This document shows positions 2,484 through 25,099 of a stretch of DNA of 29,440 nt, piece by piece. The stretch spans positions 1-29,440 of IMG/VR virus record IMGVR_UViG_3300009593_002493; one strand, 5' to 3'. The notes beneath the pieces are model-generated. The model did not search any database, was not told the DNA's origin, and was given only the letters and a program-made list of their open reading frames with translations. The stretch is from a virus. Every line of letters starts with the position of its first letter. Within the stretch, counting starts at the first letter, position 1. Both the position numbers and the translations under genes were made by a program.

Positions 2484-3419
2484 ATGAAGATCATTTCAGG
2501 TAATGCTAACATTGAGTTAGCAAACAGGATCGCAGAACATTGCTTTGCACCAATAGTTCCTGCAAACGTAACAGCCTTTGCTGATGGGGAAATCAGCGTC
2601 GAGTTTTTAGAAAATATTAGAGGAGAAGATGTCTTTATTATTAATTCTACGTCGACACCAGTTAATGACAACTTAATGGAATTAATGATAATGATAGATG
2701 CGGCTAGAAGATCTAGTGCTGACAGAATAACTGCTGTCATTCCTTATTATGGATATGCTCGACAAGATCGTAAGAGTGCAAGTCGTACTCCAATAACTGC
2801 AAAACTTGTTGCCAACTTATTAACTAAGTCTGGTGCAGATAGAATCTTAACTATGGATCTTCATGCAGGACAGATACAAGGATTCTTTGACATTCCAGTT
2901 GATGACTTAACAAGCAGGATTGCATTTGCAAAAGATATAAAAGAAAAGATTGATGTTGAAAATAACTCTTTAATATTTGTATCTCCTGATGCAGGAGGAG
3001 TTGTTAGAGCTCGTAAGTTTGCTGACATGTTTAACGGAGACATTGCTATTGTTGATAAACGTAGACCTAAAGCAGGAGTTAGCGAAGTTATGAACTTAAT
3101 TGGTGATGTTAAAGACCAACATGCTATATTAGTTGATGACATTGTTGATTCAGCTGGAACATTAGTTAATGCCGCCAAAGCAATTAAAGACGCAGGAGCA
3201 TTGAGTGTTAGAGCTTATATAACTCATGGAGTCTTAAGCAATGATGCACATCAAAAGATAGAAAAGAGTGTACTTGAAGAACTAGTAGTAACAGATAGCA
3301 TAAACTCAAGACCAATTAGTAAGTTTAAAAAGATAAGAGAAGTTACAGTAGGCCCAATGTTTGGTGAAGCCATTCGTAGAATTACTAACGAAGAATCAGT
3401 TAGCACTCTATTCAGGTAA
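2484..3419 (+). CDS. prs: Ribose-phosphate pyrophosphokinase (PRPP synthetase)
   Basis: This 311-residue protein is full length for the family (E. coli Prs has 315). It makes phosphoribosyl pyrophosphate from ribose 5-phosphate and ATP, the precursor for purines, pyrimidines, NAD and histidine. Visible motifs are the N-terminal FADGEISVEF, the ATP-binding stretch YYGYARQDRK followed by SRTPITAKLVAN, the metal-binding DLHAGQIQGFFD, and the PRPP loop VDDIVDSAGTL. ATG 2484 is preceded by a weak AAAGG. The 3' end overlaps the convergent lipase gene by 12 bases. Together with phosphate import and ribonucleotide reductase it fits a nucleotide-supply programme. All recognisable catalytic motifs are intact, so it is probably active. 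Confidence 0.96.
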   Translation: MKIISGNANIELANRIAEHCFAPIVPANVTAFADGEISVEFLENIRGEDVFIINSTSTPVNDNLMELMIMIDAARRSSADRITAVIPYYGYARQDRKSASRTPITAKLVANLLTKSGADRILTMDLHAGQIQGFFDIPVDDLTSRIAFAKDIKEKIDVENNSLIFVSPDAGGVVRARKFADMFNGDIAIVDKRRPKAGVSEVMNLIGDVKDQHAILVDDIVDSAGTLVNAAKAIKDAGALSVRAYITHGVLSNDAHQKIEKSVLEELVVTDSINSRPISKFKKIREVTVGPMFGEAIRRITNEESVSTLFR

Positions 3420-4157
3420 GGATTTATCTATGTTATCGTGATAAGCCTGGATGTCATGGTCGCCTACAGAATCAAATTTCTTTTGTTTAATTCCTTCCCA
3501 AACACCTTTCCACCAATCCATTAAGCCTGGCTTGCCTATCTTACAATCACTTGTAATATAATGGCATTCTCCGTGATGTCTGTATCCCATAATCCAAAGA
3601 GGAACCTTAGTAACTATATCGTTGTTGTTTTTCCATCTGTGATGAACAACATCTAAACTTTTAACATACCCTGACCAACCTACTCTTGGTGATCCGTAAG
3701 TATAAAGTGCAACAGGATCGTTTAATGATTCCTTATGCTTTGCTCTGCTAGACATTATAGTTGCCATTGCGGCTCCTAAGCTATGTCCACAAAACCAAAG
3801 GTCTTTTTTAAGATTTACCGAACGATCTATGTCTTCACACACCATAGGCCAAAGGTCATCAACTTCTTTTTTGAATCCTTTGTGAACCCTACTAACTGTT
3901 TCGGACATTACTGGAATTGCTTTAAGATCAGCACTAATATCATTCCATGCAGTAGGTTCTGTGCCACGACAAGCTATTACTAAGTCGGTTTTATTCATAA
4001 AACGGTATGCTTGTGCTCCGTCCCTGTCGTAAAACTCTACTGTAGAAAAACCTAATTTTTTTGCTTGACTTTTAGCGTCTTTTAAGTTATAATAAGCAAT
4101 CTTAGATAACTTTGCAAATAATAAGGATTTTTCTTTGAAACTACGATTCTTAATCAT
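3408..4157 (-). CDS. Class 3 lipase (alpha/beta-hydrolase)
   Basis: A 249-residue protein with the lipase class 3 pattern: an oxyanion-region strand VIACRGTEP (60-68), the nucleophile elbow GHSLGAA with Ser126, YGSPRVG after it, a likely catalytic Asp180 in NNNDIVTKVP, and a His near 194-195 (YRHHGE). There is no obvious signal peptide, so it would act inside the cell, or leave with lysis or the virion. Family members hydrolyse ester bonds of glycerolipids. It is on the minus strand, convergent with prs (12-base overlap), with its own late promoter on the minus strand and GAGGGG 9 bases before ATG. Attack on host membrane or storage lipids is an inference. Confidence 0.85.
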   Translation of the reverse strand: MIKNRSFKEKSLLFAKLSKIAYYNLKDAKSQAKKLGFSTVEFYDRDGAQAYRFMNKTDLVIACRGTEPTAWNDISADLKAIPVMSETVSRVHKGFKKEVDDLWPMVCEDIDRSVNLKKDLWFCGHSLGAAMATIMSSRAKHKESLNDPVALYTYGSPRVGWSGYVKSLDVVHHRWKNNNDIVTKVPLWIMGYRHHGECHYITSDCKIGKPGLMDWWKGVWEGIKQKKFDSVGDHDIQAYHDNIDKSLPE

Positions 4158-13770: not shown

Positions 13771-14967
13771 ATGACAAACATAAAAATAACAACACACCCA
13801 ACAGGTAGATCCCCTGAGAACAAATACTTTTTTGGAGAAAGGACTAGATGCTTAGATCTAACTAGACCTAAGTTTAATAAAATAGGTAAAGAAGAAGACT
13901 TTATGGTATTTTATACTTTACTACAACAACAAACAAATTACTTAGAACCTATGAACTTTGAAACAGTAGGAACTAATTTTACAATACACACTAACGACGA
14001 ACGTCACAAACAATTTGTTTGGAACATGTTTAAAGTGACTGCTGAAGACCAACATGGGGATTGGACTATATGGCACAACACAAGCATCGAAATGGAACCT
14101 AAAATATATGTGCATTTAGATAAGAAACTACTGCTCATTGCAGGTACAACATTTTTAGGAGAAATTAAAAAAGGTGTGTTTGGTATTATAAGTTTTGTAC
14201 TACCAAAGTATGATAGACTTCCTATGCATTGTGGAGCATTTACATATAGGAATACTACTAATCTTATGTTTGGGTTAAGTGGTACAGGTAAAACTACATT
14301 ATCAAGTGATCCTGATTATAAACTTATTAGCGATGATGAAGTAGTTTGGAGTAACATGGGCATTAGAATGATCGAAACAGGTTGCTATGCTAAAAGCGAA
14401 GGCTTAACACCTGAAACACATCCTACAATCTTTAATGCAGTAGAAGAAGCAAGGAGAAGGGATACACTAGTTGAAGAAAATCCTGATGCCTTAAATGCTA
14501 GATTAAGTTACCCTATTAGCTGTGTAGAAAATGCTTATCATAAACGGAGTAACTTTGATCATGCAGATAACATATTCTTTTTAACTATGGATGCCGAAGG
14601 TGTGTTTCCATCTATAAGCAGAATAAGTGGCGATACAGTTCGTAAGTTTTTTGAAACAGGATACACTAGTCAAATGCCAGGAACAGAAGCAGGTGATGAC
14701 GAAATAAAACGTACATTCTCTCCTTGCTATGGATCACCCTTTATGCCAAGAGATGTAAAAGTATACAGTGATATGCTTATAGATAAAGTAGAACAGCATA
14801 ACACAAATGTATTTTTAGTAAACACAGGCATGAACCCAGAGACAGGCGAAAGATTTGCATTAGATTATACACGGAATACAATTAAACAAGCAATACAAAC
14901 TGAGTATCCTTTACAAGATACAAGTAGTGAAGTATTAAAAACATTAGAAGGACTAATAGGAGAGTAA
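13771..14967 (+). CDS. pckA: ATP-type phosphoenolpyruvate carboxykinase, short phage form
   Basis: A 398-residue homologue of PckA, against about 520-540 for cellular enzymes. It converts oxaloacetate plus ATP to PEP, CO2 and ADP, the entry step of gluconeogenesis. Catalytic parts are present: TGRSPENK (11-18, substrate Arg13), GEIKKGVFG (Lys133/134), MHCG (His153), the kinase P-loop GLSGTGKTTLS (168-178), SDDE (Asp188/189), ECYAK-like TGCYAK and NARLSYPI (Arg244). The N-terminal domain is shortened and the last 80-100 residues of the cellular enzyme are missing after TRNTIKQAIQ. It would steer TCA-cycle carbon to sugars and pentoses for nucleotides. The enzyme looks active by residues, but the missing C-terminus leaves doubt. 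Confidence 0.92.
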   Translation: MTNIKITTHPTGRSPENKYFFGERTRCLDLTRPKFNKIGKEEDFMVFYTLLQQQTNYLEPMNFETVGTNFTIHTNDERHKQFVWNMFKVTAEDQHGDWTIWHNTSIEMEPKIYVHLDKKLLLIAGTTFLGEIKKGVFGIISFVLPKYDRLPMHCGAFTYRNTTNLMFGLSGTGKTTLSSDPDYKLISDDEVVWSNMGIRMIETGCYAKSEGLTPETHPTIFNAVEEARRRDTLVEENPDALNARLSYPISCVENAYHKRSNFDHADNIFFLTMDAEGVFPSISRISGDTVRKFFETGYTSQMPGTEAGDDEIKRTFSPCYGSPFMPRDVKVYSDMLIDKVEQHNTNVFLVNTGMNPETGERFALDYTRNTIKQAIQTEYPLQDTSSEVLKTLEGLIGE

Positions 14968-22487: not shown

Positions 22488-22785
22488 ATATTCTCCTGCA
22501 CACGGCGACAAGATAGACTTAAAGACACCAAAAGGATATTATCATGCACTCGATCACGGGGTCTTAACATTTATTAGTTGTCTTTTCTTTATCGACTACA
22601 AATTAGCAATCATTATTGGAATAGTTGATACTATTTTACACTTCACCATAGATTACACCAAAACTCGTTATGTACGTACGAATGATATCAAACAAGATAC
22701 CAAACCATTTTGGATTATTCAAGGAATTGACCAAATGGCTCATTATTCTTGCTACATGGCCTACACTCTTTACTTGACATTGTAG
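22393..22785 (+). CDS. DUF3307 membrane protein
   Basis: A 130-residue protein from GTG 22393, nine bases after a strong AAGGAGG. It matches the DUF3307 pattern: LLIKHALADLILQSRY, YHALDHGVLTFISCLFF, a hydrophobic helix, HFTIDYTKTR and FWIIQGIDQMAHYSCYMAY. The repeated His/Asp in membrane helices (KHALAD, H-x3-H, QMAH) is typical. Function unknown. Its 95-base overlap with the previous gene is long for this window. Confidence 0.8.
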   Translation: MSLNPLEILHPDWLLFALLIKHALADLILQSRYSPAHGDKIDLKTPKGYYHALDHGVLTFISCLFFIDYKLAIIIGIVDTILHFTIDYTKTRYVRTNDIKQDTKPFWIIQGIDQMAHYSCYMAYTLYLTL

Positions 22786-22804
22786 TTAAAGTATGTTATA
22801 AATA
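22774..22804 (+). promoter_or_regulatory. Dual sigma70 and late promoter of the tmRNA-hemCE unit
   Basis: TTGACA (22774-22779), a 17-base spacer and TATAAA (22797-22802) form a strong host-type promoter. TATAAATA (22797-22804) is at the same time a perfect T4 late octamer. Both predict a start near 22809-22810, at the 5' end of the tmRNA acceptor piece. The -35 lies inside the last codons of the DUF3307 gene. Confidence 0.85.
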
Positions 22805-22809
22805 TACTT

Positions 22810-22871
22810 GCAACGTTGAAGCAATTCGAACGCTGTACTGGACTCGGGTGCGATACCCGACACCTCCACCA
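22810..22871 (+). ncRNA. ssrA: Permuted tmRNA, acceptor (3') piece
   Basis: This is the tRNA-like 3' half of tmRNA, located upstream of the 5' half. It contains the P2 3' strand CTGGAC (22838-22843), a T arm TCGGG-TGCGATA-CCCGA (22844-22860), the acceptor strand CACCTCC (22861-22867), discriminator A and an encoded CCA end (22869-22871). The acceptor strand pairs fully with GGGGGTG at 23054-23060, and the third pair is G-U, the G3-U70 mark read by alanyl-tRNA synthetase. The T loop has TG in place of the usual TT. Order and pairing show a circularly permuted, two-piece tmRNA as in alphaproteobacteria. The 5' end is set from the promoter. Confidence 0.9.
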
Positions 22872-22884
22872 TAAGGACACTACG

Positions 22885-23052
22885 ATGGCAAAGTATAGAC
22901 ATAAAGGAAGAAAAGCTAGTAAACGTACAGTAAGATGTACACTTTGTACTACCTATCGCTGGATGGGGAATACTAAGGAAAGATTTAGATTTTCGGATAG
23001 ACGTCGAAAAGAGCAGTTTAAAGTTAGTCGGAATAGTTTAGTGTCTTTATGA
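22885..23052 (+). CDS. Small basic CxxC protein encoded in the tmRNA intervening segment
   Basis: A 55-residue, very basic protein (MAKYRHKGRKASKRTVRCTLC...RFRFSDRRRKEQFK) with a single CxxC pair (RCTLC). It starts 14 bases after the CCA end of the tmRNA acceptor piece, with AAGGA (22873-22877) as its ribosome binding site. It stops one base before the GGGGGTG that begins the coding piece. It thus fills the segment that must be removed to make the two-piece tmRNA. The frame is also open upstream through the acceptor piece, but that start has no ribosome binding site. Composition suggests nucleic-acid or ribosome binding; I can name no family with confidence. Confidence 0.7.
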   Translation: MAKYRHKGRKASKRTVRCTLCTTYRWMGNTKERFRFSDRRRKEQFKVSRNSLVSL

Positions 23053-23053
23053 T

Positions 23054-23271
23054 GGGGGTGAAATAGGATCGACAGGCAGGTAATAGGAAAGTGGAGTTGT
23101 CCGGATCTAAGCTCGGTTAACGCGAAGACACGTTACAGATGCAAACGATAATGTATCAAACGTATTTTCTTTCGTAGACTTCGGTTCACTTAAGAACTAC
23201 GTAAATGAGGATTACGCCTTAGCGGCGTAATTGCTCGGGGTTGGCAACTTACCTAGCAACAGAAAAGTTGC
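23054..23271 (+). ncRNA. ssrA: Permuted tmRNA, coding (5') piece with proteolysis tag
   Basis: It begins GGGGGTGAAATAGGATCGACA, the conserved 5' end and D-loop of tmRNA. GTCCGG (23099-23104) pairs with CTGGAC of the acceptor piece as helix P2. The tag frame opens at GCA 23141 (A-N-D-N...) and runs 29 codons to TAA 23228-23230, ending E-D-Y-A-L-A-A, the ending that directs ClpXP or related proteases. ATTACGCC (23211-23218) with GGCGTAAT (23224-23231) forms helix P5 around the tag end and stop. The 3' end is uncertain: a last hairpin, GCAACTT (23244-23250) with AAGTTGC (23265-23271), may mark it. It would rescue stalled ribosomes. Confidence 0.9.
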
Positions 23272-23291
23272 ACTTTAAAATTGGAGGTAAC

Positions 23292-24128
23292 ATGAAGATT
23301 GGTGTAAGAGGAAGTAAACTAGCTCTAGCATACGCCGATAAAGTCGTTGCACTACTTCCGCAGGCATGGCCCGAAATAAAAATAACCGAAATAAAAACAC
23401 AAGGCGATATTAAAGCTGACCAACCTATACACGAAATGGGTGGTAAAGGTGTATTTGTTTCTGCTATAGAAAAACAATTAATAGACAAAAAAATAGACTT
23501 AGCAATACATTCGTTTAAAGACTTACCTGCACAGATGGACGAACGTCTTGAAATAGTTGCTGTACTTGAAAGACAAGATCCTAGAGATTGTTATATAGGT
23601 GTACTATTTCCTAATGCAAAAGTTGGAACAGGCTCGCCTAGAAGAATAGCAGAACTAACAGAAAACTTTAATGTTCCTTTTAATGTACGACCTATTAGAG
23701 GAAACATTGATACACGACTACGTAAATTAGACGAAGGAATGTACGATGCAATTATACTTGCAGTAGCAGGGTTAGAAGCATTAGGATTAGAAAACAGGAT
23801 TACTAAAAGATTTCCTTTAGATAAGATGTTACCGTGTGTTGGACAAGGAGTTATAGCAATACAAATGCGTAAAGACCATCCTGACCTTAGATCTTTGCAA
23901 AAGATACTAAATCATTGGAATACGTACTATTCAGTAATGAGCGAACGTAAAATGCTACAAGTTATAGATGGCGACTGTCATACAGCCGTTGGAGCAATAT
24001 CGAGTATTGTAGGAGACTGTTTGATGCTAAAATCGATAAATTATACTAATAATAAACAATATGAAGCAACAGGAAAGCTAATGGACTATATACAAATTGG
24101 TGAGGAAGTTGGTAATAATATAAAATGA
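23292..24128 (+). CDS. hemC: Porphobilinogen deaminase (hydroxymethylbilane synthase)
   Basis: A 278-residue enzyme (E. coli HemC 313) that joins four porphobilinogens into hydroxymethylbilane in tetrapyrrole synthesis. Motifs: VRGSKLALAYADKV, KTQGD, GGKGVFVSAIE, the catalytic Asp in HSFKDLP, VGTGSPRRIAEL, RPIRGNIDTRLRKLD, and the Cys of GDCHTAVGA that carries the dipyrromethane cofactor. The C-terminal domain is short. ATG 23292 with GGAGG at 23283-23287 is chosen; a TTG at 23241 would lie within the tmRNA end. It overlaps hemE by ATGA. hemD is not in the window, so the host must supply it or the uroporphyrinogen I shunt is used. Confidence 0.95.
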   Translation: MKIGVRGSKLALAYADKVVALLPQAWPEIKITEIKTQGDIKADQPIHEMGGKGVFVSAIEKQLIDKKIDLAIHSFKDLPAQMDERLEIVAVLERQDPRDCYIGVLFPNAKVGTGSPRRIAELTENFNVPFNVRPIRGNIDTRLRKLDEGMYDAIILAVAGLEALGLENRITKRFPLDKMLPCVGQGVIAIQMRKDHPDLRSLQKILNHWNTYYSVMSERKMLQVIDGDCHTAVGAISSIVGDCLMLKSINYTNNKQYEATGKLMDYIQIGEEVGNNIK

Positions 24129-25099
24129 ATATAAAATTTAAAAATGCTTGTAAACGGATATCACAAAAAACGCCACCTATATGGTTTATGCGTCAAGCTG
24201 GAAGATATCATCAACACTATCGTGATTTAAAATTAAAATACACATTTGAAGAATTATGTAAGACTCCAGAGTTAGCTGGAGAAGTTGCACTAGGTCCAAT
24301 CGATGAATTTGATTATGACGTTGCAATACTTTTTTCTGATATACTATTTCCTTTAGAAGGCTTAGGAATTCCTTTAAAGTTTGATCCAGGTCCTAAATTT
24401 GCACATAACTTAACATTAGAAAATGCAGACGAACATAGTAACATTCCTGAAGCATTAAGGTTTATGTCATTCCAAAGAGATGCAATAATAACAACAAGAG
24501 CTATGCTACCCAAACATAAAAGTTTAATAGGCTTTGTGGGAGGTCCATGGACACTAATGAATTACGCCGTTGGCGATTCGAGAGTAACTGATGAATTTAA
24601 ACTAGACTATATGAAGTCTATTCTTATACCTTTACTAGTTCGTAATATAACATTACAACTTGATGCTGGTGCAGAAAAGGTAATGGTATTCGATAGCGGA
24701 TTAAAGAATATGTCTTCGTCTTTTTTTAATAAAAAGTATTCTCCTTTGTTAATGTCTTTAGCCATGCCACAGACAGCTTACTATAGTAAGAACTTACCCA
24801 GGAAATGCATTGACAAAGTAGTACAAGGGGACTGGGGTGGCATTGGCATTGATAGTAAAGTTGATATAACTCATGCATTAAAAACTTTTAAGAAAGGGTT
24901 TGTTCAAGGTAACTTTGACGAAGAAATGATGTTACTACCTAAACATAAGTTTATGTATCAGATAGAAAAGTATTGTGACGAAATGTCTAGAAATGATACT
25001 ACTGGTTGGGTATGTGGTTTAGGACACGGCATTAATAAAGAAACTCCAGAAGAACATGTTCACTTGTTTATAGAAACAGTAAGAAATCGTTTATCTTGA
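24125..25099 (+). CDS. hemE: Uroporphyrinogen decarboxylase
   Basis: A 324-residue enzyme (E. coli 354) that removes four carboxyl groups from uroporphyrinogen to give coproporphyrinogen, the branch to heme or chlorophyll rather than to cobalamin or siroheme. Motifs: PPIWFMRQAGRY (substrate Arg residues), AILFSDIL with the key Asp, GFVGGPWTLMNY, VMVFDSGL and GLGHGINKETPEEHV near the C-terminus. It is translationally coupled to hemC through ATGA. Its 3' end overlaps a convergent minus-strand gene by nine bases. Confidence 0.95.
   Translation: MNIKFKNACKRISQKTPPIWFMRQAGRYHQHYRDLKLKYTFEELCKTPELAGEVALGPIDEFDYDVAILFSDILFPLEGLGIPLKFDPGPKFAHNLTLENADEHSNIPEALRFMSFQRDAIITTRAMLPKHKSLIGFVGGPWTLMNYAVGDSRVTDEFKLDYMKSILIPLLVRNITLQLDAGAEKVMVFDSGLKNMSSSFFNKKYSPLLMSLAMPQTAYYSKNLPRKCIDKVVQGDWGGIGIDSKVDITHALKTFKKGFVQGNFDEEMMLLPKHKFMYQIEKYCDEMSRNDTTGWVCGLGHGINKETPEEHVHLFIETVRNRLS

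Follow-up and report, generated by a model that had tools for sequence, protein, structure and literature searches.

A total of 53 two-piece tmRNAs, mostly marine, have been reported in phage genomes, and phage tmRNA has been proposed either to keep the translation machinery running or to tag host proteins (PMC9004378). The window analyzed here, a viral stretch of 29,440 bases with linear ends that is possibly a fragment, carries a tmRNA gene whose two halves lie 182 nt apart. What this long intervening segment (IVS) holds, and how it is related to the RNA that surrounds it, is the question raised by the locus. We consider it likely that the locus is a permuted two-piece tmRNA gene whose IVS doubles as a gene for a small protein. 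The parts of the tmRNA gene are as follows:

22774..22802, plus strand: sigma-70 promoter candidate, TTGACA-17-TATAAA, directly 5' of the tmRNA (read from the sequence)
22810..22871, plus strand: 3' (acceptor) piece with T arm, CACCTCC, A and an encoded CCA (RF04321, RF01849)
22872..23053, plus strand: IVS of 182 nt between the two modelled tmRNA pieces, whose removal is expected in processing
23054..23274, plus strand: 5' (coding) piece, reaching 23274 in RF01849 and 23230 in RF04321
23141..23230, plus strand: tag reading frame ANDNVSNVFSFVDFGSLKNYVNEDYALAA, first codon GCA at 23141, stop TAA at 23228-23230 (from the sequence)

The order of these parts is permuted, as the preliminary description had recognized: the acceptor strand (CACCTCC at 22861-22867, A at 22868 and CCA at 22869-22871) lies upstream of the coding piece, which begins with GGGGGTG (23054-23060). 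All seven pairs that had been proposed between these two ends form (GGGGGTG/CACCTCC, 7/7), the third being a G-U, and a G-U at this position of the acceptor stem is the mark of alanine identity. The covariance search with alpha_tmRNA (RF01849) that had been named beforehand gave a match at 22770-23274 (plus strand) with 96.9 bits and an E value of 1.6e-25 (cmscan, Rfam), and tmRNA_permuted (RF04321) matched 22810-23230 (plus strand) with 94.1 bits; both are far above the Rfam gathering scores of 50 and 47, respectively, with both models used in pseudoknot-free form. The ends predicted at 22871 and 23054 agree with the modelled pieces. P2 has to be redrawn: the pairing of GTCCGG with CTGGAC suggested for it is not that of the family, and in Rfam 22834-22840 pairs with 23073-23078, UGU (22834-22836) and CUG (22838-22840) being matched to CAGGCA and GAC being single-stranded. 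Both stems change on both strands in relatives, the acceptor stem to GGGGATG/CATCTCC (L013) and GGGGCCG/CGGCTCC (L015), and P2 to UAG/CUA (L007), ACG/CGU (L015) and AAG/CUU (L017). The arrangement recurs in near-identical contigs that come from three other metagenomes (L003-L005) and is therefore not an assembly artefact. ARAGORN called no tmRNA in the window. Taken together, the tmRNA gene in the window is phage-borne and circularly permuted, and its RNA is expected to be processed into two pieces.

The tag of this tmRNA has 29 residues and ends with YALAA, the mode of tag length being 14; another long tag, of 31 residues, is found in L082, and the extra part of the 29-residue tag may fold into a small hairpin at the RNA level. 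The upstream element at 22774..22802 is probably a sigma-70-like promoter, and a like layout precedes the tmRNA in phage Melnitz and in L461; our promoter scan does not list it because a T is demanded there as the last base of TATAAT.

The preliminary description omitted a gene at 22885-23052, inside the 182-nt gap. This gene and the helix that closes the IVS occupy the following positions:

22872..22882, plus strand: 5' arm of the helix, UAAGGACACUA, 11 bp with 23039-23049, containing an AAGGA ribosome-binding site (22873-22877)
22885..23052, plus strand: nested protein gene of 55 codons, starting MAKYRHKGRKASKRTVRCTLCTTYRWMGN, with its stop 1 nt before the 5' piece (from homology and ORF length)
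23039..23049, plus strand: 3' arm of the helix, UAGUGUCUUUA, pairing with 22872-22882 and also encoding the final codons of the nested gene; a conserved UGAU comes next

The nested gene nearly fills the IVS, with the AAGGA 7 nt ahead of the ATG. Dinucleotide shuffles give ORFs of 8.3 codons on average against the 55 observed (p 1.5e-4), and the more decisive evidence for coding is homology to genes outside any IVS. Relatives with 42-62% identity were detected at first in 12 further viral contigs and by a wider search in 30; the resulting protein family, unnamed and essentially phage-only, includes 33 viral loci and one metagenome-derived bacterial contig. The family core SKRxVRCTxCTxxRWxGN (RKASKRTVRCTxCTxxRWxGN in the family) is present in the window protein, and R14, C18, T19, C21, T22, R25, W26, G28 and N29 are invariant in an alignment of 18 sequences (A2). 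The spacing of 1 nt between the stop and the 5' piece was also considered as evidence for coding and dropped, the UGAU being conserved regardless. On homology and ORF length, coding by the nested gene is well supported.

The nested protein had no match in Pfam or NCBIfam and no convincing match in PHROGs, and its structure model was poor (pLDDT 64) and gave no fold match in the PDB. It is small and basic and contains a CxxC motif, features that would most simply be read as those of an RNA-binding protein. A tblastn search of 50,697 phage records returned no match for this protein or for three other IVS families, so isolates with these IVS genes are rare.

A permuted tmRNA is present in the retrieved flanks at 19 of the family's 33 loci from viruses. 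In diverged phages (L006-L011, L013-L015, L042 and L053), the family gene immediately precedes the acceptor piece, the start of which is overlapped by the stop codon of the gene; the tmRNA of L053 is of beta type. Homologues in L036 and L052 are in or beside phage tRNA clusters, which suggests a link of the family to tRNA-like RNAs generally. These varied placements therefore point to one small gene that is tied to tmRNA and tRNA genes and that lies inside the tmRNA in the lineage of the window.

The IVS is closed by a helix of defined position. In long-IVS precursors the start of the IVS pairs with a stretch that is separated from the 5' piece by 4 nt (register 1/-5), and the IVS of the window has the same register, with 11 bp between UAAGGACACUA and UAGUGUCUUUA. 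Among the matches listed, pairing in this register has a value of 0.88 for long and 0.81 for short IVSs as against 0.42-0.65 in other registers, the helix arms of a sequence have a folding energy of -14.9 kcal/mol versus -7.0 kcal/mol when arms are swapped (p 2e-4), and AU, UA, GC and CG interchange at many positions of the helix, which is thus supported by covariation. The UGAU before the 5' piece is conserved in 141 of 197 sequences among the matches listed; this linker faces ACCA, so that the two cutting sites are placed opposite each other. According to partition-function folding, the AAGGAC of the window has a mean unpaired probability of 0.65-0.71 in nascent RNAs and of 0.0 once the 3' arm has been made. 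This occlusion on synthesis of the 3' arm is the basis for a translation switch that we infer for the window from the folding model. Only 17 of 72 IVS clusters (95 of 197 sequences) among the matches listed have a motif resembling a ribosome-binding site within the arm, and occlusion is therefore not general; in Melnitz, the ribosome-binding site is just outside the IVS helix.

To see how such IVSs are distributed, IMG/VR was scanned for patterns in which a tmRNA acceptor end and a 5' piece are 122-183 nt apart, and this yielded at least 197 distinct long-IVS tmRNA genes in at least 72 IVS clusters. Among the matches listed, 24 of 72 clusters have a contained ORF that is significant against shuffles (p<=0.05), with 3.6 expected (Fisher p 1e-11); many long IVSs have no significant ORF, and the IVS genes belong to many unrelated families, small membrane proteins included. 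The commonest family, MKNPLVREVSKWMFKAYIVWSICADITLLAGIIYLVFF, is represented by 35 distinct sequences of the same length, all of them open. Its in-frame pS is 0.541 and pN 0.138, whereas the two other frames have pN/pS values of 1.07 and 1.84; in three further families the in-frame pS/pN values are 0.245/0.044, 0.357/0.082 and 0.161/0.009, and pN/pS in the other frames of the tested families is mostly >=0.8 (these counts pool pairs of related sequences, which are not independent, and the evidence lies in the contrast between frames). Several IVS families thus show purifying selection at the codon level that is confined to the predicted frame.

Among the best 80 relatives of the commonest family, 68 lie within an IVS by a strict test, and the exceptions that were examined have longer IVSs (some with two genes), a slightly altered acceptor end (L466) or the gene directly upstream of the tmRNA (L517, L518). 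Two consecutive small genes occupy the IVS in L461 and L481, the first one in L461 being MIKFFRKLFNKKEYDNCFAANYRRKCNASYEDLCM (translated by eye). The IVS-gene loci that were checked are flanked by gp32, T4-type RNase H and NrdA/NrdB and are therefore from T4-like phages. A small gene nested in a tmRNA IVS is common in ocean phages.

The strongest alternative is that the IVS is a tolerated insertion pocket and that a compact phage genome simply carries its small genes there as cargo, with neither their translation nor their products related to the tmRNA. Such a reading is quite possible, if somewhat short of probable, considering that the IVS genes are of so many kinds, that some IVSs contain two of them, that the same families are also found directly upstream of the tmRNA, and that the family of the window occurs in tRNA clusters or without a nearby tmRNA as well (L036, L052, L037). 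However, the linkage of that family to tmRNA is strong, nearly all of the best 80 relatives of the commonest family are in or directly before a tmRNA, and the ribosome-binding site of the window gene is built into the processing helix itself, all of which argue for a connection between gene and RNA.

It is very unlikely that the phage RNA acts as a decoy for host trans-translation, or inhibits it, instead of working as a tmRNA. The tag-less tmRNA-like domain of phage DS6A, for which such a role has been suggested, provides a precedent (PMC4131195, PMC11915505), and the tag in the window is twice the usual length, but its frame is open and ends with YALAA, and the tRNA-like domain, the G-U pair and CCA are all intact. 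Even less credible is an untranslated ORF, a remnant or chance frame in an IVS serving as RNA spacer only. The conserved UGAU does create a stop in one frame by itself and the three near-identical IVS sequences of the window lineage are too few for a codon test, but the protein has clear homology to genes outside IVSs and several other IVS families show frame-specific purifying selection.

Returning to a permuted tmRNA gene whose IVS also encodes a small protein, computation has shown the tmRNA, the membership of the nested gene in a phage protein family, the helix that closes the IVS and the repeated occurrence of coding IVSs in phages, and from these we infer processing, charging, a translation switch and a role for the nested protein. 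In permuted tmRNAs generally, RNase P generates the 5' end and 3' processing halts at CCA; the pieces remain paired, receive alanine and function together with SmpB. In the window, transcription would begin at the predicted strong promoter that borders the acceptor piece. The ribosome-binding site just past CCA would be open in the nascent RNA, allowing translation of the basic 55-residue protein, and the nascent or unprocessed precursor would thereby act as the message for the nested gene. Once transcription has passed approximately 23049, the end of the nested gene would pair with its own ribosome-binding site in the 11-bp helix, which would both block further initiation and join the two acceptor strands. 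Host RNase P and 3' nucleases would then cut at 23054 and after 22871, respectively, so that the IVS is set free and the tmRNA remains as two pieces. With host AlaRS and SmpB, this RNA could free ribosomes stalled on broken mRNA by adding the YALAA-ending tag, and may add to rescue capacity during the breakdown of host messages.

More tentatively, and with a probability that we place a little below that of the insertion pocket, many marine phages may make a dual-function transcript that serves first as a small-protein message and, after helix formation and the RNase P cut, as a ribosome-rescue RNA, with translation and maturation mutually exclusive for each molecule and the small proteins helping the phage to control translation or the host. 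If true, this exclusion would be strictest in phages such as Melnitz, whose small gene enters the 5' piece.

Conserved small genes in a helix-closed IVS loop provide a concrete handle on the role of phage tmRNA. They also expose hidden small proteins of phages: the Melnitz record lists none in the IVS and ARAGORN misses the tmRNA of the window, and these proteins have gone unannotated because they are located inside an RNA gene. Melnitz on OM43 strain H5P1 is cultured and has the arrangement, and the coupling of small-protein translation to tmRNA maturation is thus directly testable.

Genes for subunits of ribonucleotide reductase, for a cold-shock protein and for two endolysins are present in the window, together with one that weakly matches a virion structural protein, and the nrdB region has 69% DNA identity to pelagimyophage HTVC008M. 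Because of this gene content and the nrdB likeness, the window is most likely from a T4-like marine phage. Several metabolic genes were also identified:

23292-24128: hemC, hydroxymethylbilane synthase (TIGR00212, 270 bits), directly after the tmRNA
24125-25099: hemE, uroporphyrinogen decarboxylase (below the TIGR01464 cut-off)
13771-14967: PEP carboxykinase, ATP type, shortened to 398 aa (Pfam E 5.6e-90; below NCBIfam cut-offs)
195-1250: ring-hydroxylating dioxygenase (weak match)
2484-3419: ribose-phosphate pyrophosphokinase
3408-4157: class 3 lipase

The last three together form a metabolism-rich phage region. The hemC gene has only distant matches among phage records, several of which are bacterial sequence, and porphobilinogen deaminase has been reported in a deep pelagimyophage group (PMC7029224); the PEP carboxykinase has hardly any phage relatives. 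An alphaproteobacterial host had previously been suggested from the tmRNA type. This inference is weak, and tmRNA type was discarded as a means of host assignment, since Melnitz infects a gammaproteobacterium although its tmRNA is of alpha type (PMC9004378). The resemblance to HTVC008M appears to be better evidence on the host, yet indirect.

Among known systems, the closest is Melnitz (EXVC044M and relatives, PMC9004378), also a marine T4-like phage with an alpha-type permuted tmRNA, an early-type promoter and a long, helix-closed IVS (142 nt) containing a nested gene, of 54 codons, that is unannotated in its record. Genes of this type (10 distinct sequences) have a pS of 0.338 and a pN of 0.110 and an in-frame insertion of 8 codons. 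Unlike in the window, the nested gene of Melnitz is a different one and extends 42 nt into the 5' piece, the tag has 14 rather than 29 residues, and the tmRNA is followed by a glutamine riboswitch instead of hemC and hemE. Several Melnitz-type genes continue into the 5' piece, where the same bases specify protein and tRNA-like domain; with such an overlap, the small protein could come only from the uncut precursor. Pelagimyophage HTVC008M, a related phage, shares an alpha-type permuted tmRNA and IVS hairpin arms directly after CCA, but its IVS is only 50 nt and contains no gene. The permuted tmRNAs of alphaproteobacteria (RF01849; SAR11, Caulobacter) are similar in permutation, acceptor domain and tag design, whereas their IVSs have reported lengths of 75-125 bp (PMC2704228) compared with 182 in the window, and no protein gene in them is reported in the literature searched.

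Second genes within tmRNA precursors have been described in other forms. A tRNA-Ala lies inside the permuted tmRNA IVS of GCA-2688965, a single case from a metagenome assembly, and a repetitive element inside another such IVS (PMC11915505); the former resembles the window in having a second gene within the IVS but differs in that this is an RNA gene. Homing-endonuclease genes occur in group I introns of tmRNA (PMC11915505) and are likewise protein genes in a removed precursor segment, although they are much larger and reside in a self-splicing T-loop intron rather than in an IVS. No report of protein genes inside a permuted tmRNA IVS was found in the literature searched. Two-piece tmRNAs of phages were already known (PMC9004378), and the precursor with a nested gene, as read from these sequences, would be the new part.
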